NCBI GenBank assembly: GCA_017553545.1 | Contig: JAFZKT010000021.1 | Location: 1-46,214 of the forward strand | Origin: Bacteroidales bacterium | Lineage (GTDB): Bacteria > Bacteroidota > Bacteroidia > Bacteroidales > UBA932 | Direction: 5' to 3' | DNA: 46,214 nucleotides | Shown here: positions 18,999-28,144 of the stretch, in pieces | Layout of the letters: every line of letters starts with the position of its first letter | How positions within the stretch are numbered: position 1 is the first letter of the stretch | Translations under genes and position numbers: made by a program | The notes under the pieces: model-generated | What the model was told of the DNA's origin: nothing | Seen by the model: only the letters and a program-made list of their open reading frames with translations | The model's database searches: none

Positions 18999-20239
18999 TG
19001 AATACGGACATCAACATCACCCCCAACGACTGGACCAGCGAACGCTCCATCATTAAAGTGATCGGCGTAGGCGGAGGCGGCTGCAATGCCGTCAACTATA
19101 TGTACAGGCAGAACATCCAGGGCTGCAGCTTCATCGTGTGCAACACCGATGCACAGGCATTGGCCTCCAGCGAAGTTCCCATCAAGATCCAGATGGGAGA
19201 AGGCGGACTGGGCGCGGGAACGGATCCCGCGGCCGGACGTAACGCCGCTTTGGAAAGCCAGGAGGAGATTGCCGCCAAAGTGATGGACAACAACACCAAG
19301 ATGCTCTTCATTACGGCCGGCATGGGCGGCGGTACCGGCACCGGCGCCTCCCCCGTCATCGCCAAGATGGCCAAGGACAGAGGTATTTTGACGGTGGCCG
19401 TAGTGACCATTCCCTTCAAGAACGAGGGCAATGAAAGCCAGTCCAAGGCCGTTGACGGCATCCACGAACTGGAAAAGAACGTGGACGCGCTCCTGATTAT
19501 CAACAACGAGAAACTGTATCAGTTCTTCGGGGACACCCTTATCCAGGAAGCCTTCCCCAAGGCCGACGAAGTGCTGGCTACAGCCGTCCGCGGCATCATC
19601 GAGGTCATCAGTCGGCCCGGTTACATCAACGTGGACTTCCGCGACGTGTGCAAAATGATGCGCGACAGCGGCATGGCCCTGATGGGCAGCGGAGAAGGCA
19701 CCGGGGAAAACCGTCTGGAAATGGCCGTAAAGGGAGCTTTCGAGAGCCCGCTCCTCAATGACTTTGATTTGAAGACCGCCAAACACGTCCTGGTGAATAT
19801 CACTACCGGCGCCAACGAACGCGGCGCCAAGATGAGCGACCTGGAACGCATCGACGACATGATTTCAGAATATACCGGCGACGCCAACCACTTCAAGAAG
19901 GGCATCGTCTGGGAGAAGGATCCCGAGTTTGGCGACAAGGTGCGCATCACCGCCATCGTCACGGGCTTCGACATGGACCTGGGCGGACTGGGCCTGAACA
20001 AGGACCTGGGGAACCTGGTGATTATCGACGATAACTTCCAGTGGGAACAGGCCTCGACGGGCGGCGAGGTAAACATTCCCGCCGGGGCCGACACCATCAA
20101 GATCGGCTATAACAACTCCGACAACGCCAGGCACTTCGACTTCTCCACGGACCGCCGCCCGGTGCTCTGCATCGCCCCCGGCGCCCCGAAAGCCGAGCTG
20201 GAGAACACCCCGGCCATCCGCCGGACGCATAGCGCGTAA
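18998..20239 (+). CDS. ftsZ: Cell division GTPase FtsZ
   Basis: Tubulin-like GTPase forming the Z ring. The 413-residue protein shows VGGGGCNAVN (24-33), the tubulin signature GGGTGTGASPV (110-120), and the T7 loop NVDFRDV, where the common Ala is Arg but both acidic residues remain. After the GTPase and C-terminal domains there is only a short linker before the conserved terminal peptide ENTPAIRR, which would bind FtsA. It is the last gene of the dcw cluster; palindromic element A begins 10 bp after its stop and may help end the transcript. Confidence 0.97.
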   Translation: MNTDINITPNDWTSERSIIKVIGVGGGGCNAVNYMYRQNIQGCSFIVCNTDAQALASSEVPIKIQMGEGGLGAGTDPAAGRNAALESQEEIAAKVMDNNTKMLFITAGMGGGTGTGASPVIAKMAKDRGILTVAVVTIPFKNEGNESQSKAVDGIHELEKNVDALLIINNEKLYQFFGDTLIQEAFPKADEVLATAVRGIIEVISRPGYINVDFRDVCKMMRDSGMALMGSGEGTGENRLEMAVKGAFESPLLNDFDLKTAKHVLVNITTGANERGAKMSDLERIDDMISEYTGDANHFKKGIVWEKDPEFGDKVRITAIVTGFDMDLGGLGLNKDLGNLVIIDDNFQWEQASTGGEVNIPAGADTIKIGYNNSDNARHFDFSTDRRPVLCIAPGAPKAELENTPAIRRTHSA

Positions 20240-20248
20240 GGCTGTCGG

Positions 20249-20355
20249 CTGGAGCAAATCTCTCTGATTCACAGCGACTTACTTATACAGGGGTGCACCG
20301 GGCGGTGCACCCCTCTTTTAGCTTCTCGCTGATTTTCAATTACTTACGATCCAGG
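20249..20355. repeat. REP-like palindromic element, copy A
   Basis: A 107-bp element with ends CTGGAG and ATCCAGG. The core AGGGGTGCACC (20289-20299) - GGGC - GGTGCACCCCT (20304-20314) is a perfect 11-bp stem with a 4-base loop. CTGATT lies 15 bases from the left end and again 15 bases after the core. It fills the space between the ftsZ stop and the gltX promoter, and the core is followed by CTTTT. Confidence 0.85.
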
Positions 20356-20364
20356 CTACTTGTG

Positions 20365-20395
20365 TTGGAAAACTGCCCGAAATCCGCTAAATTTG
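20365..20395 (+). promoter_or_regulatory. gltX promoter, Bacteroidota type
   Basis: TTG (20365-20367), 20 bases, then TAAATTTG (20388-20395), 21 bases before the gltX ATG. It begins 10 bp after element A, so gltX is probably not part of the dcw transcript. Confidence 0.7.
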
Positions 20396-20415
20396 CATCC
20401 TCAACAGCAGAAGAT

Positions 20416-21978
20416 ATGGAAAGAAGAACCCGCGTAAGATTTGCTCCGTCACCCACCGGCCCGCTTCATATGGGCGGCGTGCGCACGGCACTGTATAACT
20501 ACCTGTATGCCAAGCAGAAAGGCGGCGATTTCATCCTCCGCATCGAGGACACGGACTCGCACCGTTTCGTGCCGGGCGCAGAGCAGTATATCATCGAAGC
20601 GCTTAACTGGTGCGGCATCACGCCGGACGAGGGAATCGAGAACGGAGCCATCGTGGAAGTGGCCTCCCCGAAGCATCCCCACGCCCCTTATCGGCAAAGT
20701 CAGCGCAAGCCCCTCTATCGCAAGTACGCGGAAGAATTAGTGGAAAAGGGCTGGGCCTATTACGCGTTCGACAGCGCGGAGGAACTGGCCGCGAAGCGTT
20801 CGGAGGCTGAAGCCATCGGCCAGACCTTCATGTACAACGCCGCCAGCCGCCTTCAACTGCGGAATTCTTTGACCTTGCCGGCCGATGAAGTGGCGCGTCT
20901 AGTGAAGGAGACATCGGACTGGACCGTTCGCTTCAAGATGCCTGTCGGCCGGGTAGTCAAAATGGACGACCTCATCCGCGGGCACGTGGAAGTGAATACC
21001 GACACGCTGGACGACAAAGTCCTCTGGAAGCGGGCCGATGAACTCCCCACCTACCACCTCGCCAACATCGTGGACGACCATCTGATGGAAATCACGGAGG
21101 TGATTCGCGGCGAGGAATGGCTACCTTCTCTTCCGCTGCATTATCTGCTGTACGAAGCCTTCGGCTGGACGGACACGATGCCCCGCTTTGCGCATCTGTC
21201 CCTGCTGCTGAAGCCGGACGGAAAGGGAAAACTTTCCAAGCGCGACGGCGACCGCCTGGGCTTCCCGGTGTTCCCGCTCAAGTGGGTAAGCCCCGAAACC
21301 GGCGAAGTTTCCCGCGGCTACCGCGAAGACGGTTACTTCCCGGAGGCATTTGTGAATATGCTCGCTTTCCTGGGCTGGAATCCCGGTGGCGAAAGGGAAC
21401 TCTATACGCTGGACGAACTGGTTCCCGTGTTCTCGCTGGACCGCGTCATCAAATCCGGCGCCCGCTTCAATGTGGAAAAGGCCAAGTGGTACAACAAGGA
21501 GTATCTGCGCGCCAAGAGTGTTTCCGAGCTGACTGATCTGTTCATCCCCGTGCTGGAAAGCAACGGCGTCAGCGGATGTGACCGCGCCTATGTTGAATCC
21601 GTGGTCGGCCTGGTACAGGAGCGCGCCACTTTCGTGGCCGACATGTGGGACATCGCCAAGTCCCTCTTCGTGGCACCATCGGCCTATGAGCAGAAGGATG
21701 TGGACAAATTCTGGAAAGAGGAGAACTACAGCCTGATGATTCAGGCCGTGGATTGGCTGGTGAAGGAGTATAAAGGCGCCGTGACGCCTGAGGGCGTAGA
21801 GGCTGCCCTTGTGGATTACATCAAGGCGCACGAATGGCCGATGGGCAAGGTGATGAACTGCCTCCGTCTGGCTCTCACCGGCGCGGCTTCAGGCCTTGGC
21901 ATCGCGGACCTCGTCGCCCGCATCGGCCTGGACGAAACCGCCCGTCGCGTGCACGCCGCGGCTTCCTGCTTAAATTAG
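20416..21978 (+). CDS. gltX: Glutamate--tRNA ligase
   Basis: Class I aminoacyl-tRNA synthetase that charges tRNA-Glu. I start at the ATG at 20416 (MERRTRVRFAPSPTG): it follows a well-placed promoter and matches the family N-terminus, while an upstream in-frame start would lie inside palindromic element A. The 520-residue protein has the HIGH-type motif as HMGG (18-21) within PSPTGPLHMGGVRTALYN, RIEDTDSHRF, and the KMSKS-type loop as KLSKR (272-276), followed by a helical anticodon-binding domain. Length is normal. It converges on the transposase gene across element B. Confidence 0.96.
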   Translation: MERRTRVRFAPSPTGPLHMGGVRTALYNYLYAKQKGGDFILRIEDTDSHRFVPGAEQYIIEALNWCGITPDEGIENGAIVEVASPKHPHAPYRQSQRKPLYRKYAEELVEKGWAYYAFDSAEELAAKRSEAEAIGQTFMYNAASRLQLRNSLTLPADEVARLVKETSDWTVRFKMPVGRVVKMDDLIRGHVEVNTDTLDDKVLWKRADELPTYHLANIVDDHLMEITEVIRGEEWLPSLPLHYLLYEAFGWTDTMPRFAHLSLLLKPDGKGKLSKRDGDRLGFPVFPLKWVSPETGEVSRGYREDGYFPEAFVNMLAFLGWNPGGERELYTLDELVPVFSLDRVIKSGARFNVEKAKWYNKEYLRAKSVSELTDLFIPVLESNGVSGCDRAYVESVVGLVQERATFVADMWDIAKSLFVAPSAYEQKDVDKFWKEENYSLMIQAVDWLVKEYKGAVTPEGVEAALVDYIKAHEWPMGKVMNCLRLALTGAASGLGIADLVARIGLDETARRVHAAASCLN

Positions 21979-21982
21979 CCAC

Positions 21983-22089
21983 CTGGAACGGAAGTAACTG
22001 ATTGAATGTAAATTACAAATATAGGGGTGCACTGGGCGGTGCACCCCTATTTGCGTAAGTGGCTTATTGTTAGCGCTTCCAACTCCAGG
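21983..22089. repeat. REP-like palindromic element, copy B
   Basis: 107 bp with the same 40-26-41 geometry as copy A. Stem ATAGGGGTGCAC (22021-22032) / GTGCACCCCTAT (22039-22050) is a perfect 12-bp match. Ends are CTGGAA and CTCCAGG. The right end overlaps the last codons and stop of the transposase gene (22070-22089). It lies between two convergent genes. Confidence 0.85.
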
Positions 22090-23002
22090 GCAGATGGAGC
22101 AATCGGGCAATTTGATAATCCTTGGCAGGAGAAGTGTGACGCAATAAATCGGCCAGCATTTCTTTCTTCTCATCTGAGGCCGATAAAACGGCATGCGGTT
22201 TTGCAGCAAAACCGGATTGGCCGATGATTTCCAGCATCTCCACGTAGATTTGGTCTGAATCTATCTTGTATTCCTCTTTCAGGTCGTACTCGCTTCCTGT
22301 GTTGGAATTAATGGCCAGGACCATCGAAGGGTAGTCCTTGTAAAAACTGAGCAACGCAGCTTTGTCGATGGGAAGATATCGGCTGATGATATAATCCGTC
22401 AATTGTTCCTGCTCCGCTGCCGATATTTTTTTGTAGATGCGGCGCAGCACCGCGTAACTTAGATAGGCGTGGTCGCGGACGTGATTATCCACCTCTTTCA
22501 ATGCGATTCGCATAGGGCCCGTTGCCTTTTCCCGCTGAATCGGCCGGGAAAAAGGATGATCATTCCCAATGTACGCAAGAAAATTCCATCTGTCATCTTC
22601 GGCTCTTGCGAATAATTGCTTCTCTACAGAGTTGTTGTAATGGTACGCCACGCACGTACGGATTTTCTTTTCCGTCGTTTTGGGAGCGTTGCCATAGGCT
22701 TTTTCAAAGAGAGCACCCTTTCGGCCGGAATCTCTGTTGAAAGCCATCGCATAGGTGGATGTGACTGTGCCGATGAACAATGCTTTCACCTTGGGTGATG
22801 CGGCACGGATGAGCGTATGGAAATGGTTGAACATCAGGGCCAGTGCCAGCACGCTGATACCATAGTTCCAAGCCATTACTGAAAAGATGGTAAAAAAGAC
22901 CAGGCGGTCTTCCCGGGAGTAGAAGATGAGATTGTAGTCGATGCCGTGTTGAAAGATGTGTTCATAGGCGTCCAGGGTGAATTTTCTTTTGTGACCTCGC
23001 AT
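22070..23002 (-). CDS. rayT: REP-associated tyrosine transposase (RAYT, Y1/HUH superfamily)
   Basis: Single-strand-type HUH transposase domain related to IS200/IS605 TnpA. From the start chosen here (MRGHKRKFTLDAYEHIFQHG) the protein has 310 residues. It shows the fold's pattern of an early strand, then YSREDRLVFF, and the metal-binding H-x-H as H60-F-H62 in ALMFNHFHTLI. Catalytic tyrosine candidates lie in the CVAYHYNNSVEK helix. An upstream start at 23056 would add 18 residues. RAYTs are known to act on REP sequences near their own gene rather than on IS ends. Four palindromic elements lie around this gene, and copy B is joined to its 3' end. The G+C content is visibly lower than in the dcw cluster, suggesting transfer. 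Confidence 0.85.
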   Translation of the reverse strand: MRGHKRKFTLDAYEHIFQHGIDYNLIFYSREDRLVFFTIFSVMAWNYGISVLALALMFNHFHTLIRAASPKVKALFIGTVTSTYAMAFNRDSGRKGALFEKAYGNAPKTTEKKIRTCVAYHYNNSVEKQLFARAEDDRWNFLAYIGNDHPFSRPIQREKATGPMRIALKEVDNHVRDHAYLSYAVLRRIYKKISAAEQEQLTDYIISRYLPIDKAALLSFYKDYPSMVLAINSNTGSEYDLKEEYKIDSDQIYVEMLEIIGQSGFAAKPHAVLSASDEKKEMLADLLRHTSPAKDYQIARLLHLPWSWKR

Positions 23003-23128
23003 AGTTTTGTGCTTTAGTGGATCACAATTATAAGATATATTATTCGAGGAAAACATAACTTGTTGATAACTTGTGTTGTTTTAGCTGCTTTTTTATCTGT
23101 TTTGACTGATTATTCGTATCTTCGCACT

Positions 23129-24067
23129 ATGACAAAGGAAGAAAAGTATCGGGAGTTACTGCGTCAAGCGGAGGCTTTGCTGGCCGATGAAAAGGATCCC
23201 ATCGCGCGGATGTCTAATCTGTCAGCCATGCTTCATACTGAGATGGGGTTCTGGTGGACAGGATTCTATCGTGTACAAGAAGAAGAACTGATTCTTGGAC
23301 CCTTTCAGGGACCGGTGGCTTGTTTGCGGATAGCTTTCGGCCGTGGCGTCTGCGGAACCGCTTGGAAAGAACAGCGGACGCTTGTTGTTCCGGACGTGGA
23401 ACAATTCCCCGGCCATATTGCCTGTTCCAGTGAATCCCGCAGCGAAATAGTTATTCCCGTCTGGCAGCAAAGCCAGGTTGTTGCTGTACTGGACATTGAC
23501 AGCCGGGAGTTGAACAGCTTTGACAATACAGACAGGGAGTGGTTGGAGAAATTCGCCGTCCTGACTTATGGGCCCAGTAAGGAGATATGGTTTGCGGCGG
23601 GTTGCTTTTGGGGGGCTCAGAAGTTTTTCAAGCGTATCAAAGGCGTTGACTACACGGAAGTGGGGTTTGCCAATGGTCAATTGATGAATCCCTCCTATGA
23701 GCAGGTATATATAGACACAACCGGTCATGCCGAATGCGTTCACATTAGATATAATCCGACGGTGATATCTCTTCGGCGACTCACGGAATTATATTTTAAA
23801 ATCATCGACCCGCTCAGTCTGAACAAACAGGGTGAAGACGAAGGGACCCGCTACCGAACCGGCGTGTATTTCGATGATTCGCAAGACGTAGCAACCTTAA
23901 GTAAAGTATTTACAAACGTGAAGCGGTCGCTGGGAGTATCGGCCCTGCCGGTTGAACTCCTTCCCCTGAGGTGTTTCTTCCGAGCCGAAGACTATCATCA
24001 AGACTATCTGGATAAGAATCCTGGCGGTTATTGTCACCTGAGTCCTGATGTTTTCGAACTAATCTAG
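23129..24067 (+). CDS. Fused free methionine-R-sulfoxide reductase (GAF) and peptide methionine-S-sulfoxide reductase MsrA
   Basis: Two repair enzymes in one 312-residue chain. Residues 1-148 form a GAF domain of the fRMsr (YebR) type. Cysteines C65, C75 and C99 have exactly the spacing of the three redox cysteines of E. coli fRMsr (84, 94, 118), within GRGVCGTAW and GHIACSSESRSEIV. Residues 152-312 form MsrA, with catalytic C159 in GCFWG, DPLSLNKQGEDEGTRYR, and a resolving C302 in GGYCH. The chain would reduce free Met-R-sulfoxide and protein or free Met-S-sulfoxide. I start at the ATG at 23129 because an upstream in-frame start adds a stretch with no homology to either family. The gene is divergent from the transposase and ends 6 bp before element C. 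Its G+C is lower than that of distant neighbours. Confidence 0.9.
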   Translation: MTKEEKYRELLRQAEALLADEKDPIARMSNLSAMLHTEMGFWWTGFYRVQEEELILGPFQGPVACLRIAFGRGVCGTAWKEQRTLVVPDVEQFPGHIACSSESRSEIVIPVWQQSQVVAVLDIDSRELNSFDNTDREWLEKFAVLTYGPSKEIWFAAGCFWGAQKFFKRIKGVDYTEVGFANGQLMNPSYEQVYIDTTGHAECVHIRYNPTVISLRRLTELYFKIIDPLSLNKQGEDEGTRYRTGVYFDDSQDVATLSKVFTNVKRSLGVSALPVELLPLRCFFRAEDYHQDYLDKNPGGYCHLSPDVFELI

Positions 24068-24073
24068 TTTAGA

Positions 24074-24180
24074 CTGGAGCAGAAGTGGCTGATTATCACT
24101 ACATTGCCCACAAAGGGGTGCACTGGCTGGTGCACCCCTGTTTGTATATGTAATTGATATCAAGCGAGTTAAACTCCAGG
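24074..24180. repeat. REP-like palindromic element, copy C
   Basis: 107 bp, same geometry as A and B. Stem AGGGGTGCAC (24114-24123) / GTGCACCCCT (24130-24139). The ends CTGGAG and CTCCAG are exact inverted repeats. It fills the whole gap between the msr fusion stop (24067) and the truB stop (24181-24183), which it touches directly. Confidence 0.85.
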
Positions 24181-25221
24181 CTACTGCAGCAGGGCCAGGG
24201 CCTGGTCCAGGGAGAGGGCGTCGGAGAGGCGGAAGTCACCGCTGCGGGAGCGGATGAGACCGCTGAGGTGAGCGCCGGAGCCGAGGGCCTCGCCCAGATC
24301 ACGGGCGAAAGCACGGATGTAGGTGCCCTTGGAGCAGGCGATGCGAATGACGGCCTCCGGCAGTCCCAGGGCCGATGTATCCGCCACATGGATGCGGGAA
24401 GAAGCTGTCGAGACTGCTACGGCGGGGAGAGACTCCCTCCCGGGGGACTCCGCTACGCTTCGCTCCGCTCCGGCCCCTCCCATTACGCCGTGCCCTGCGG
24501 GCACTGGCTGTGGGCCCCTCCCCCTATACTCGTCCGGGGGTGGACAAGCCCCCGGGAGGGAGTCTCTCCCCGCCGTAGCAAAGTCCAGCAATTCCAATTC
24601 AGAAATCAGAATGCGGTTGCGCTGGAGCGTGTCCAGGGCGGCGGAGTCGAAAGGAGATTCTTCGCTTCGCTCAGAATGACAGGAAGAGTCAGAATGACAG
24701 GAACGGGCCTTATAAAGTTTCCGGGCAAGTTCATAGGCGCGGACGCCATCCACAGACTTGGCGCTGAAGAGCGGAGCCACCTGCTCCTGCTCGCCTAAGA
24801 AGGCCGGGAGGGCGGTGCGGACGGCATCGGCCGTAATGTGCTCATAAGGGAACGTGCGGTCCACTTCCTTCTCCAGGTCGTAGGACGGTGTGGTGGCGCC
24901 GAAACGGATGCGGGCGATGTACTCCTTGTCGTGATTCTGGAGCTCCTGCGCACGTTTGCAGGCATCGCCGATGCAAACCAGCAGCACCCCCGTCGCCAGT
25001 GGATCCAGCGTCCCCGCGTGCCCCACCTTCAGGTTCTTCTTCCCGAAGTGCCTGATGGCGGCGAACTTGAGTTTGCGGATTACATCGGCCGATGTCCACC
25101 GATACGGCTTGTCCACCGGAAGGACGATGCCTTCAGGGTAGTCGGCGAGATTCCCGGTCAAGCCGGGAATGACGGCAGAAGAGCCGGGAATGACGGGAGT
25201 GGGAGTGGGAACGAAATACAT
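24181..25221 (-). CDS. truB: tRNA pseudouridine-55 synthase TruB with repeat-encoded insertions
   Basis: Makes pseudouridine 55 in the T-loop of tRNAs. The catalytic aspartate is D73 in GHAGTLDPLATG; the C-terminal part shows CSKGTYIRAFARDLGEALG and LIRSRSGDF. The start at 25221 overlaps the rpiB stop (TAATG). At 346 residues it is about 100 longer than a usual Bacteroidota TruB, and the excess is repeat-like. Residues about 8-26 (VIPGSSAVIPGLTGNL) come from a palindromic repeat. About 173-192 (CHSERSEESPF) come from a widespread dispersed repeat. About 214-271 (AGRDSLPG ... PGRESLPAV) come from a 166-bp element with 32-bp inverted arms. All three keep the frame, so the enzyme may still work with surface loops. 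Catalytic segments look intact. Confidence 0.9.
   Translation of the reverse strand: MYFVPTPTPVIPGSSAVIPGLTGNLADYPEGIVLPVDKPYRWTSADVIRKLKFAAIRHFGKKNLKVGHAGTLDPLATGVLLVCIGDACKRAQELQNHDKEYIARIRFGATTPSYDLEKEVDRTFPYEHITADAVRTALPAFLGEQEQVAPLFSAKSVDGVRAYELARKLYKARSCHSDSSCHSERSEESPFDSAALDTLQRNRILISELELLDFATAGRDSLPGACPPPDEYRGRGPQPVPAGHGVMGGAGAERSVAESPGRESLPAVAVSTASSRIHVADTSALGLPEAVIRIACSKGTYIRAFARDLGEALGSGAHLSGLIRSRSGDFRLSDALSLDQALALLQ
24415..24580. repeat. 166-bp palindromic element inside truB with perfect 32-bp arms
   Basis: Bases 24415-24446 and 24549-24580 are exact inverted complements over 32 bp (arm begins TGCTACGGCGGGGAGAG). The 102-bp interior holds further structure: two GGCCCCTCCC direct repeats and a TGCCC-TGC-GGGCA hairpin. 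It is read through by truB. Near-repeat text appears in both arms (AGRDSLPG and PGRESLPA). Confidence 0.85.
24650..24702. repeat. Dispersed repeat of the CHSERSEESPF-encoding type inside truB
   Basis: The plus strand reads GGAGATTCTTCGCTTCGCTC then AGAATGACAGG, with the AGAATGACAGGAA part repeated once (24673 and 24691). On the truB strand it is translated SCHSDSSCHSERSEESPF. This peptide text is a well-known by-product of an intergenic repeat found in many bacterial phyla. Confidence 0.65.
25148..25199. repeat. Palindromic repeat in the truB 5' end, related to the one in murE
   Basis: Arms ATTCCCGG (25150-25157) and CCGGGAAT (25163-25170) around TCAAG, followed by GACGG. A half copy, GCCGGGAATGACGGG, follows at 25183-25197. 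It is translated as VIPGSSAVIPGLTGN at the TruB N-terminus. The same palindrome type occurs at 8963-8989. Confidence 0.65.
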
Positions 25222-25652
25222 TAACGGCAGGGCATCTTGTCGATGCGTTTCTGGTGACGGCCGCCCTCGAAGGGAGTATCCAGCCATTCGCGCACGATGG
25301 CGGCGGCCAGGCGGTAGCTGATGAAACGGGCGGGAAGCACCAGCACGTTGGCGTTGTTGTGCTGCGCCACCAGATGGCCGATGGCAGTCCCCCAGGCCAG
25401 GCCCGCGCGGATGCCCTGATGCTTGTTCAGCGTCATTGCCATCCCGTTGCCGGTGCCGCAGAGGGCAATTCCCAGCGACACTTCCCCGCTTTCCACGGCC
25501 GATGCCAGCCGATGGGCGAAGTCCGGATAGTCCACGCTGTCCGTGGTGTCCGTGCCGTAGTTAACCACCTCAATGCCGCGGGAACGCAGCATCTTCACCA
25601 GTTTGAACTTGTACTCCACGCCAGCGTGGTCGTTGCAAATGCCGATTTTCAT
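25221..25652 (-). CDS. rpiB: Ribose-5-phosphate isomerase B
   Basis: Interconverts ribose-5-phosphate and ribulose-5-phosphate in the pentose phosphate pathway. I start at the ATG at 25652 (MKIGICNDHAG); an upstream in-frame start would pass through the promoter. The 143-residue protein has the family marks ICNDHAGVEYK (4-14), the YPDFA segment, and CGTGNGMAMTLNK around the catalytic cysteine. It is followed by truB with a TAATG overlap, so the two share an operon. Its promoter reaches into palindromic element D. Confidence 0.94.
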   Translation of the reverse strand: MKIGICNDHAGVEYKFKLVKMLRSRGIEVVNYGTDTTDSVDYPDFAHRLASAVESGEVSLGIALCGTGNGMAMTLNKHQGIRAGLAWGTAIGHLVAQHNNANVLVLPARFISYRLAAAIVREWLDTPFEGGRHQKRIDKMPCR

Positions 25653-25671
25653 AGCGTAATGTTTTAACATA

Positions 25672-25701
25672 CAAATATAAGCAAAAAAAGGGTGACACAA
25701 A
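25672..25701 (-). promoter_or_regulatory. rpiB-truB promoter
   Basis: On the minus strand TTTG (25698-25701), 18 bases, then TATATTTG (25672-25679), 19 bases before the rpiB ATG. The upstream box lies within the left end of palindromic element D. Confidence 0.65.
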
Positions 25702-25798
25702 AGTCGCTGAGGATGAGAGATTTACGCAGATTAGGGTGCACCGCACGGTGCACCCTAATAGTCACAAATAACTGTGATTGAATGAGTTACCTATCCAC
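25692..25798. repeat. REP-like palindromic element, copy D (diverged)
   Basis: Perfect 13-bp stem ATTAGGGTGCACC (25730-25742) / GGTGCACCCTAAT (25747-25759) with a 4-base loop. CTGA at 25707 and CTG at 25772 hold the same distances from the core as CTGATT in the other copies, and ATCCA occurs near the right end. The terminal CTGGAG is lost. It spans from the rpiB promoter into the last codons of the GH92 gene (stop 25787-25789). Confidence 0.7.
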
Positions 25799-28144
25799 GG
25801 GAGGACGGGAGGCGTCCCAGCAGGAGGAAGGCTCGGTGCCCATGTCCAGGACCAAGGTGCCGCCGGCGAAGACTTCGCTGCGGTACAGCCAGTTGCGGTC
25901 CAGGGGCTCCCCGTTGAACGTGGCGCCCTGCACATACAAGGCGTCCGGGCCATTGCCGCGGGTTTCAATCACGAAAGTCTTGCCCGATGCATTGTACGGA
26001 TCCAGATGCACCACAATCTTGTCAAAGGCCGGACTGCCGATCTGGTAGGTGGGATGTTCCGGAGCGCCGCCCTGCACATCGAACAGGCCGATGGTAGAGA
26101 GCACATACCAGGCGCCCAGCTGACCCTGGTCCTCGTCCTGGCCATAGCCGTAGCCGTGTTCGCCGTCCGTGCCGTAGAATTCGTCACAGATCAGGCGCAC
26201 CCACTTCTGGGTTAGCGCAGGCCTGCCGGAGAAGTTGAACAGCCAGGGTTCGTGCAGGCAGGGCTGGTTGCCGTGGTTGTAGGGACTGTTGAGACCTGAG
26301 AAGGCATAGGCCACCTTTCCGCCGCCGAATATGCTCTTGCGGGCTTCGGTGAAGATGCCGTCCAGCCGCTCGTTGAAGACATCGGCCCCCAGACGGGCGA
26401 TGAGTGAATCCGGATGCTGCGGCACGAAGAAGGTATACTGCATGGCATTGCCTTCCTGGAAACCGCGCCAGGACTCCAGCGGGTCGAAATTGCCGATGAA
26501 TTCGCCATCCGTTCCACGGGGATGGACCAGCTTCAGATCGTCGTCGAAGAGCCTGGCCCAGCCGTCTGAAAGATCCATCAGCTGCCGGTAGTCCTCTTCA
26601 TGGCCGAGCTGTTTGGCCAGCTGGGCCGTAGCATAGGCGCTGAAACTGTATTCCAACGTGTGAGAGGCGGAGAAAGTGGCTCCGCCGCTGTGGGCTACGA
26701 AGCCGGGATCCGTCACATACGGGACATATCCCTTGGTGACGAACTGCTCCACGTCCATCTTGCCGGCGCCCTCGATGCGGCCTTTCCACTCCAGGTTGTC
26801 CTTACGGGCGGCGGCGTACATCGTCTCCACGTCATAGTCCCGGATGCCGCTGTTGTAGGCACCTGCAAAGGCGATGGAAACCATGTTGGTTCCCACGCCG
26901 GAGACGTATTTGCTGCAGGCTATTCCGTCGCCCAGCCAGCCGGCGTCCTTGTAGACCAGCAACTGGGACGACACCCAGTCGTTGTAGTACCGGGGATAGG
27001 CCAGGGCCCAGAGCGGAGTCAGGTTCCAGTAACCGCCCCAGATGGCGTCCGTGTTGTAGTGGTTGTGAACAGGCTTGCCGGAGGCATCCAGAGGGATTTG
27101 GCCCACGGAGCCGTCGTTGGCGGGATAGGCCCCGTTCACATCGCTGGCAAGGCCGCGGCCCAACAGCGCGTGATACAGGCCCGTATAGAACTTGACCTTA
27201 TCCTCGGGCTTTCCGCCATAGACCTCAATCTTACCCAAGGCTTCCCGCCACAGGGAAGCGGCCTGCTCCGCCGCGTCGTCAAAGGACAGCGAGGCGGCCT
27301 CGGCTTCCAGATTGGCCCGGGCATTCTCCACAGAGGTATAGGACAGACCCAGTTTCGCCACCACCGTGCCGGGATTGTCGTAATCCAGGCAAAGGACGGC
27401 ACCGGGGCCGGATACCTCCGAAGCGGCGCCACGCTCCCCTCCCACGTGGAAGGCGGAAACGGACGTGGGCGCCTTGGACAGTTCGGCATAGAAGAACATA
27501 CTCACGGTGGCACCGTTCTGATACTTCTTCACGTATTCAGGTTCGGTGACGATATACCCCTGCAGGATATTGCCGGAGCAGGCGGCATAGGCATCACGTA
27601 CGGCGCCGCTCTCCCCCATCCGGGTACCCACGTTCACCAGGATGTGACCGGGCTGGGAGCCGTCGAAACTGAAGCGCTGGAAACCCACGCGCCGGGTGGC
27701 GGTAAGTTCAGCCTTTACGCCATAATCCTTCAGGTAAACGCTGTAGTAACCGGCGCGGGCCTTTTCAGAAGCCTTGTCAAAACTGGAACGCCAGCCTTCG
27801 GAGGGATTCTCCAGCACGCCGGGCTGCGTCACAGGTTCCCCGGTGACGGGCATCAGGGCCAGACCGCCCACCTGGAATTCGTGGAAACAGGGAAATCCGT
27901 CGATGGAAGTATGGGTGTCTTCATAACCCACGGCTTCCCAGCCCTGGTTATTCCCATAGGTACCGTTGGTGGAAGCCCCCAGCTTGGCCATGCCGAAAGG
28001 TACGGCAGCGGGCGTGTATACGAACCAGCGGCTGTGCACCGTGCCGATGTTGGGATTTACATAATCCAGCACATCTTCAAGTACATCTTCGCGGGTGGAA
28101 CAGGCTGCCAGAACGCCCAGCAGCAGGATAAACAGCTTTTTCAT
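25787..28144 (-). CDS. GH92-family alpha-mannosidase lipoprotein, acid residue replaced by Gln
   Basis: Exo-acting, calcium-dependent, inverting glycosidase family that removes alpha-linked mannose. The 785-residue protein begins with a lipoprotein signal (LLLGVLAAC, C15). It carries GH92 landmarks: the N-terminal beta domain (VNPNIGT, VPFGMAKLG), HNHYNTDAIWGGYWNLTPL, the (G)NxP segment GNQPCLHEPWLFNFSG, and DEDQGQLGAWYVLSTIGLF. In typical members the general acid is the Glu of GNEP; here that place is Q627. The Asp-containing general-base motif is kept. A characterised mannosyl-phosphate-specific member has the same Glu-to-Gln change, so mannose-1-phosphate diesters may be the substrate. It is the last gene of the mannan operon and overlaps GH76 by 4 bp (ATGA). 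Confidence 0.92.
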   Translation of the reverse strand: MKKLFILLLGVLAACSTREDVLEDVLDYVNPNIGTVHSRWFVYTPAAVPFGMAKLGASTNGTYGNNQGWEAVGYEDTHTSIDGFPCFHEFQVGGLALMPVTGEPVTQPGVLENPSEGWRSSFDKASEKARAGYYSVYLKDYGVKAELTATRRVGFQRFSFDGSQPGHILVNVGTRMGESGAVRDAYAACSGNILQGYIVTEPEYVKKYQNGATVSMFFYAELSKAPTSVSAFHVGGERGAASEVSGPGAVLCLDYDNPGTVVAKLGLSYTSVENARANLEAEAASLSFDDAAEQAASLWREALGKIEVYGGKPEDKVKFYTGLYHALLGRGLASDVNGAYPANDGSVGQIPLDASGKPVHNHYNTDAIWGGYWNLTPLWALAYPRYYNDWVSSQLLVYKDAGWLGDGIACSKYVSGVGTNMVSIAFAGAYNSGIRDYDVETMYAAARKDNLEWKGRIEGAGKMDVEQFVTKGYVPYVTDPGFVAHSGGATFSASHTLEYSFSAYATAQLAKQLGHEEDYRQLMDLSDGWARLFDDDLKLVHPRGTDGEFIGNFDPLESWRGFQEGNAMQYTFFVPQHPDSLIARLGADVFNERLDGIFTEARKSIFGGGKVAYAFSGLNSPYNHGNQPCLHEPWLFNFSGRPALTQKWVRLICDEFYGTDGEHGYGYGQDEDQGQLGAWYVLSTIGLFDVQGGAPEHPTYQIGSPAFDKIVVHLDPYNASGKTFVIETRGNGPDALYVQGATFNGEPLDRNWLYRSEVFAGGTLVLDMGTEPSSCWDASRPPVDR

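Follow-up and report, generated by a model that had tools for sequence, protein, structure and literature searches.

Do palindromic repeats at the ends of bacterial genes belong to the transposase encoded among them, to the host genes they adjoin, or to neither? The question is raised by a stretch of 46,214 nucleotides (the window; contig JAFZKT010000021.1 of assembly GCA_017553545.1, Bacteroidales bacterium), in which four copies, A to D, of a 106-bp palindromic element lie around a gene for a REP-associated tyrosine transposase (RAYT; REP, repetitive extragenic palindrome). Our best explanation, to which we give a probability of roughly 0.78, is that the elements are non-autonomous repeats resembling REPINs (REP doublets forming hairpins), each served by one cognate RAYT. 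In this group of gut bacteria, palindromic repeats at gene ends appear each to be tied to a single transposase gene. The window corresponds to C12 among the 89 contigs of a draft genome (the source genome), which totals 1,758,656 bases and is about 80% complete. Its genus is most likely Candidatus Cryptobacteroides, judging from the named-record relatives of the gltX locus, which are mostly Bacteroidales metagenome-assembled genomes, several of them so named.

The element consists of outer ends, a degenerate palindromic wing (AAnTnnCTGAnnnTCAGnnAnTT), and a GC-rich hairpin, followed by the wing and ends in inverted form; each wing is itself a dyad (AAnTnnCTGATnnTCAGnnAnTT). We scanned the flanks of 76 RAYT genes with a skeleton taken from the source genome combined with stem pairing, a score that omits the identity of upstream and downstream stems. 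These loci are a subset of all RAYT matches in the genus and comprise 2 from the source genome, 29 from the genus protein search, 40 further high-ranking matches, and 5 at gltX loci; locus L007, which had no tblastn match, was excluded. At a score of at least 30, an element lies within about 500 bp of the RAYT gene at 72 of the 76 loci (both sides at 46, one side at 26, none at 4), and at a score of 29 the corresponding numbers are 50, 22, and 4. Shuffled flanks amounting to 542,472 bases contained no element at score 30 and a single one at 29. Among 29 RAYT-like loci in the order's other genera, zero reach 30 and four reach 29. Within the window, the RAYT gene is in contact with copy B, and copy C lies beyond msrA.

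The hairpin sequence is particular to the RAYT locus. When the upstream hairpin of a single RAYT is compared with the downstream one at score 30, 44 of 46 such pairs share at least 8 of their 11 bases, a level reached by 90 of 3,426 pairs drawn from different loci (46/50 versus 90/3662 at score 29). Hairpin similarity also tracks RAYT similarity (Mantel r 0.265, with 0 of 999 permutations as high): the 7 RAYT pairs that are more than 80% identical all share 10 or 11 of 11 stem bases, and 9 or more are shared by 7 of the 2,270 pairs that are less than 45% identical. The outer ends are likewise locus specific, with 5.9 of 7 positions matching between the upstream and downstream copies and 3.2 between loci, whereas the wings hardly are (11.5 of 22 and 10.6, respectively). 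Because the ends act like the stem and the wings do not, the element can be divided into RAYT-specific parts (stem and ends) and common parts (wings and A and T tracts). The most common outer ends across the RAYT loci are GTTT, CTGG, GTGG, and GTAA.

Two such pairings coexist in the source genome. The core of the window copies, GGGTGCACN6GTGCACCC, occurs at 37 exact places and 2 with one mismatch, 39 in all, so the genome-wide lack of further copies that the initial annotation had set as a test of its proposal was not encountered; the core pattern read backwards, as a control, gave 0 exact places and 3 with up to two mismatches. Three of the copies (C35:366, C63:184, and C78:6) lie less than 400 bp from contig ends. 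The assembly may therefore break at such repeats, and the true copy number may be above 39. A second RAYT, on contig C9 and 36% identical to the window RAYT, is bracketed by two elements with the stem ATCGATGG, which has 7 copies in the genome (control pattern, 0). One genome thus holds two RAYTs with two private hairpin families, of 39 and 7 copies.

An exact-core search of 61 genomes found GGGTGCAC in the source genome (37 copies), in G028 (14 copies), and once each in G003, where recognizable wings are absent, and G017; the other 57 genomes had none. The RAYT of G028 is 67% identical to that of the window, and the species of the source genome, G028, and locus L159 share GGGTGCAC with RAYTs that are 65 to 67% identical. 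At the base just below this stem (x = 0, with x counted relative to the core), all 14 copies in G028 have C, compared with 1 of 38 in the source genome (G in 24, A in 13). A second hairpin is confined to 4 of 101 genus genomes and a third to 1 of 101.

Element and transposase are also associated at the level of whole genomes. Among the 101 genus genomes, which were covered by both the covariance-model and the RAYT protein searches, 72 have RAYT protein matches (57 at E < 1e-20) and 63 have matches to R1, a covariance model built from the source-genome copies and their stem. R1 reaches this many genomes because elements with other stems share the architecture; its numbers should not be read as copy numbers, since both strands of the palindrome are counted and at most 37 candidates per genome were scored. 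R1 matches occur in 49 of the 57 genomes with a RAYT at E < 1e-20 and in 14 of the 44 without (Fisher p 2.8e-8), which is not the equal abundance that had been named beforehand as the outcome contradicting a link. Some families are missed by R1: G068 has twelve RAYT matches, zero R1 matches, and elements with other stems beside its RAYTs at L188 and L192.

In the window, copies A to D lie where the initial annotation had placed them and have the geometry it described, copy D retaining geometry and stem with degenerate ends. The dyad-symmetric unit CTGGAG...CTCCAG is 106 bp in A, B, and C; the length is fixed, as had been claimed, and the earlier figure of 107 bp includes one flanking base. The motif CTGATT, reported to lie 15 bases in, starts at base 16 of A, B, and C and reads CTGAGG in D. 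That all copies share one orientation, a point also made earlier, carries little meaning because the element is near-palindromic. All four adjoin genes, and B is fused to the 3' end of the RAYT gene, both as previously noted. The features are as follows (palindromic features without strand):

20249 to 20354: element copy A, 106-bp two-winged palindrome; ftsZ stop codon 9 bp before; upstream of gltX
20258 to 20280: left wing of A, AAnTnnCTGATnnTCAGnnAnTT motif
20289 to 20314: core hairpin of A, 11 pairs, terminator-like
20323 to 20345: right wing of A, position by geometry
21983 to 22088: element copy B, between the gltX stop (21978) and the RAYT gene; last RAYT codons and stop (22070-22072) inside its right end
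21992 to 22014: left wing of B, position by geometry
22021 to 22050: core hairpin of B, 12 pairs
22057 to 22079: right wing of B, position by geometry
22070 to 23002, minus strand: RAYT (Y1 HUH REP-associated transposase), 310 aa if translated from the start of its L159 relative; open frame to 23056
24074 to 24179: element copy C, between the convergent stops of GAF-msrA (24067) and truB (24181)
24083 to 24105: left wing of C, by alignment and wing search
24114 to 24139: core hairpin of C, 11 pairs
24148 to 24170: right wing of C, position by geometry
25692 to 25797: element copy D, degenerate ends; bordered by the 5' side of rpiB and by the 3' end of the gene after it (25787-28144)
25701 to 25723: left wing of D, by alignment and wing search
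25730 to 25759: core hairpin of D, 13 pairs
25766 to 25788: right wing of D, position by geometry

The neighboring gltX, GAF-msrA, truB, and rpiB genes were identified by Pfam; the gene that we take to be ftsZ was recognized by reading its translation, and the gene at 25787-28144 is presumably GH92-like.

The spacing of the unit is fixed and its sequence diverges, as the initial annotation had observed. Copies A to D are identical at merely 34 to 49 of 80 positions outside the core, and the 38 source-genome copies with flanks on both sides (one copy 5 bp from a contig end was left out) align without gaps over the element, the exception being L031, with its disrupted right wing. Conservation declines near x = -43 on one side and x = 66-68 on the other. 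Along the unit, near-invariant positions are interleaved with near-random ones, indicating constraint rather than plain decay. The inner stem pairs hardly vary, a near-invariance that in part reflects the selection of copies, since the core search tolerated up to two mismatches. The lower stem pairs x = 0/23, -1/24, and -2/25 change jointly, with 38, 38, and 19 of 38 copies paired, the expected values being 19.6, 20.9, and 9.7. No clear excess of pairing is seen inside a wing or between the two wings: a few of the many wing and outer pairs reach p 0.01-0.05, at about the chance level, so that the wings are best viewed as sequence motifs. Wing hairpins, or one long hairpin, were considered as conserved structures and rejected, as the pair counts show clear covariation for the core stem alone. 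Rfam gave zero matches up to an E value of 1 across 19900-26100.

None of the 39 copies is spanned by a gene of a simple codon model; these repeats are dispersed, extragenic, and palindromic. The genes around them are convergent at 24 copies, in the same direction at 11, and divergent at 1, with 3 having no predicted gene on one side. The position at gene borders seen in the window holds genome-wide, with 58 of 62 adjoining gene 3' ends falling from 29 bp inside to 23 bp outside the element border and 17 exactly one base away; two distances of about 2.1 kb are artifacts, because the codon model missed RAYT and msrA. The excerpts of PMC3733652 at hand describe classical REPs between convergent genes of two species as lying mostly at most 20 bp from both 3' ends, their GTAG ends often providing a TAG stop. 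The core hairpins of the source-genome copies have a mean stability of -22.1 kcal/mol, and T-rich tails (at least 4 T of 8) follow on 53 of 76 strands, compared with 13 of 150 control positions. Besides being putative mobile repeats, the elements probably also act as bidirectional terminators.

Comparisons with relatives show sites that recur while their stems change. The orthologous msrA-truB site carries AAGGGGTGCAC in the window and GTCGGGTGCAC in L159 and L171. An element lies within a few dozen bases of the gltX stop in the window and in 12 of 80 relatives, with about eleven different stems (L102, L104, L107, L119, L126, L138, L145, L151, L159, L163, and L171 at E up to 0.0015; L148 at E 0.0044); the other 68 relatives had no model match after gltX, with some of their sequences ending just past this gene. 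Upstream of gltX, L159 has element-RAYT-element where L171 has a single element, the flanks being 79 and 87% identical. With a crossover in mind, we compared the single L171 element with the two L159 copies and obtained half identities of 25 to 28 of 46 every way; among source-genome copies, exchange of halves shows a weak excess over column shuffles. The recurrence of sites with changing stems could reflect replacement, conversion, or independent insertion, among which we make no choice. At the ftsZ 3' end of L119, orthologous to window positions 20240-20360, we observed an inside-out arrangement: a hairpin CTGCCCGGGAA...TTCCCGGGCAG whose loop holds one wing (CTGATATTCAG).

The window RAYT has an HFH motif, a catalytic tyrosine, and a conserved C-terminal region of about 150 residues. 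Pfam Y1_Tnp is matched by 17 of 17 RAYT relatives (best E 3.3e-10), and H78, H80, Tyr138, Asn141, Asn142, and Trp157 are invariant in 72 of 72 aligned relatives. In the same alignment, the C-terminal stretch (hSNTGSEYDIkE and the final QIAKFLHL) shows roughly the level of conservation found across much of the catalytic half; the C-terminal region of these RAYTs, at about residues 180-328, has no Pfam match. A full-length RAYT profile matched 44 of 344 sampled genomes of the order, a sample with just two members of the genus. Matches along the length were confined to the two source-genome RAYTs, the rest covering at most about the first 170 of 305 positions, so the "Bacteroidota" scope first proposed for this variety may be too wide. 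Searches of solved structures gave at best weak matches to Y1 transposases (2xo6, E 0.0073). A phage or plasmid origin of the RAYT was considered and rejected; one phage and three plasmid records match, over 37 to 41% of the protein at 28 to 31% identity. RAYT and GAF-msrA together (22070-24067) have 48 to 50% G+C between genes of 59 to 63%, and both fail a codon model trained on their neighbors and on msrA itself. These deviations suggest that the pair between copies B and C was acquired.

We propose that the hairpin and outer ends, both locus specific and the hairpin also co-diverging with the RAYT, are the parts that the cognate RAYT would recognize. Following other Y1 transposases, recognition and cutting would take place on single-stranded DNA; by analogy with TnpA-REP, as far as it is described in the accessible portion of PMC8266576, the RAYT would bind the single-stranded hairpin, cut near the ends guided by the end sequences, and copy the element to new sites. 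The wings may serve as a common docking motif, possibly for the RAYT C-terminal region or a host protein. RAYT genes bracketed by copies form the arrangement known as a REPtron. At gene 3' ends, where the copies are found, the GC-rich hairpin with its flanking A and T tracts would end transcription both ways; insertions would be harmless or useful because of this bidirectional termination, with geometry and hairpin kept while the wings drift. Both mobilization by the RAYT and termination at the elements are read from sequence patterns.

A bolder extension, which we consider possible but doubtful, is a modular repeat code. The wings would be a universal landing or binding module for the C-terminal region of this RAYT subclass, and hairpin and ends an exchangeable address. 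New RAYT families would insert into elements already present at gene 3' ends, such as those following gltX, a RAYT could be lost between bracketing copies, and the address would be rewritten at fixed terminator sites, with changes then sweeping all copies in the genome.

The alternative that survives best, although we judge it unlikely, is that the elements are host-owned bidirectional terminators or protein-binding sites under selection, with the RAYT as a passenger or domesticated. Positions that fit stop codons closely, stable hairpins followed by T-rich tails, degenerate wings in a fixed geometry, and the lack of evidence for recent copying would all be expected, and 24 of the 36 copies with genes on both sides are convergent, a figure that comes without a genome-wide baseline. 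Host ownership, however, gives no reason for the stem to change in step with the adjoining RAYT, for elements to adjoin 72 of 76 RAYT genes, or for one genome to hold two families with separate RAYTs.

More improbable still is that a RAYT and its two bracketing elements form an IS200/IS605-like insertion sequence, the scattered elements being solo ends or miniature inverted-repeat transposable elements. The 46 loci bracketed on both sides and the orthologous site upstream of gltX, with its single element in one relative and element-RAYT-element in another, fit this idea. The hallmark of IS200/IS605, several near-identical copies of transposase plus ends, was nevertheless not seen in the source genome or among 39 within-genome RAYT pairs from the tested loci. 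The window RAYT is single copy, its next best match in the genome being 36% identical with another stem; the 39 pairs are just 32 to 63% identical, so none is a recent copy; and scattered elements outnumber the RAYT 39 to 1. That the palindromes are a stem-loop family unrelated to RAYT, piling up in the same intergenic spaces as the intergenic RAYT genes, is scarcely credible given their absence at score 30 from shuffled flanks and from RAYT-like loci of other genera, the matching stems on both sides of a RAYT, and the genome-level association.

Several observations weigh against the explanation by cognate RAYTs and, in part, against a role in termination. Four RAYT loci (L074, L091, L094, and L212) have no element, nor does a third, weak Y1 gene of the source genome (C26). 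R1 matches are absent from 8 of the 57 genomes with a strong RAYT match and present in 14 of the 44 without, at least five of them in 7 of these genomes. For G005, one of the four genomes with the hairpin confined to 4 of 101, the cognate RAYT was not identified. For one RAYT family there are just 3 exact element copies, each of them at the family's own locus, and G017, whose RAYT is 92% identical to that of this family, has no exact-pattern element of it. The window RAYT falls below the Pfam and NCBIfam cutoffs (REP_Tyr_transpos, E 5.7e-5; Y1_Tnp too). Recent movement was not seen: the source-genome copies have diverged, with a best half-to-half match of 37 of 42 (50 column shuffles gave at most 36), and clean empty sites were absent among the matches listed, close pairs being those with flanks at least 80% identical. 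The sole case of presence and absence between close species concerns the gltX 3' end, where L163 has a full element (7138) and its sister species L146 only outer remnants, with flanks 95 to 97% identical; this looks like an internal deletion. T-rich tails occur on both strands in merely 19 of 38 copies, and a terminator scan of the region found 9 sites, compared with 6.2 in shuffles.

How the system relates to known ones can be seen from several comparisons. RUP, Correia/NEMIS, and ERIC are short intergenic palindromic or inverted-repeat units of roughly 100 to 130 bp; to our knowledge, they are linked to other transposase types or to none and have no RAYT partner. RAYTs themselves were reportedly divided into groups by Bertels, Gallie and Rainey in 2017. 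The closest likeness is to REP/RAYT systems, or REPtrons, such as TnpA-REP of E. coli and Pseudomonas, of which the consulted portions of PMC6006769 and PMC3733652 describe a Y1 HUH transposase flanked by palindromic repeats, dispersal of the repeats between genes and next to gene 3' ends, and a private, co-evolving repeat type for each RAYT. The present elements differ in their 106-bp unit, compared with 21 to 65 nt for REPs, in their two conserved wings, and in a RAYT with a long C-terminal region. They also lack GT[AG]G at the hairpin foot (0 of 76 source-genome halves and, looking within 12 nt of the stem, 2 of 226 from other families); at the outer ends GT is common (129/226) but GT[AG]G is not (23/226). 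The proposal that GGAG stands in for GTAG does not hold as a general rule, because outer ends differ between RAYT loci and GT[AG]G is absent near the hairpin foot. The suggestion of a distinct REP/RAYT variety does fit, with copies genome-wide and element matches that track RAYT. The system is a variant of the REP/RAYT kind, REPtron/REPIN-like, rather than REP in the strict sense, since the defining classical mark, the GT[AG]G foot, is missing.

REPINs of Pseudomonas fluorescens SBW25, according to the available part of PMC3116915, similarly have two symmetric inverted parts around a hairpin, conserved spacing, and a linked RAYT, and the two inverted units and conserved length are found here. 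In REPINs, however, the ends are conserved and the middle is a less conserved spacer, whereas in the present elements the central hairpin hardly varies within a genome and the wings, though degenerate, resemble one another in all families; outer parts pairing with compensatory changes, a further REPIN trait, were not detected, wing and outer pairs being at chance level. TnpA-Y1 subclass 2.6 (Bertels group 5) shares a Bacteroidetes class-2 RAYT, a Y---NP type motif, and flanking "atypical secondary structures" that recur in the genome; it is set apart, by description, by a median length of 179 aa versus about 310 to 340 here (PMC6006769, in part). In the same partial text, the long subclasses with a C-terminal domain (2.1 and 2.3) are described as unflanked and the flanked ones as short. 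Compared by description only, a long, flanked RAYT would be a new subclass relative to the portion of PMC6006769 consulted. TIRYTs and their TIRtrons resemble the present system in a RAYT-like gene, long flanking inverted repeats without GTAG, and possible dispersed families, some of them self-complementary; the excerpt of PMC3733652 describes neither a shared geometry nor a common wing. Among the papers listed by our literature searches, which covered no preprints and few subscription papers and seldom named the genus, we saw no description of such elements in Cryptobacteroides; this absence is weak evidence.

RAYT/REP systems persist in bacterial genomes and are poorly understood. The roughly 70 RAYT loci described here, most of them from a single genus, have dozens of different hairpins but one wing design and amount to a natural experiment on RAYT recognition in which hairpin and end sequences can be regressed on RAYT residues. 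They point to a RAYT subclass in which a conserved C-terminal region occurs together with flanking repeats, and they provide a testable instance of a mobile repeat that may double as a bidirectional terminator of genes.

A search for lone wings in the source genome turned up further single elements with other stems at C84, C59, C32, C55, and C77, and several other places without such an element. At C55:1940-2280 (L281), wings and repeated half-stems (CCGTGCTAACCCC and variants) are clustered and resemble a broken array of another element family. On C51, at about 210-245 (L278), a wing standing alone, with neither a core nor a partner wing, forms a perfect 16-bp hairpin, AAAAATAAGTCGCTGA-ttt-TCAGCGACTTATTTTT. 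Back in the window, the truB frame contains a long inverted repeat (GGGGAGAGACTCCCTCCCGGG and its complement) at 24400-24600, which, together with a short repeat, cagaatgacagg, near 24670-24700, represents another repeat type inside coding sequence.

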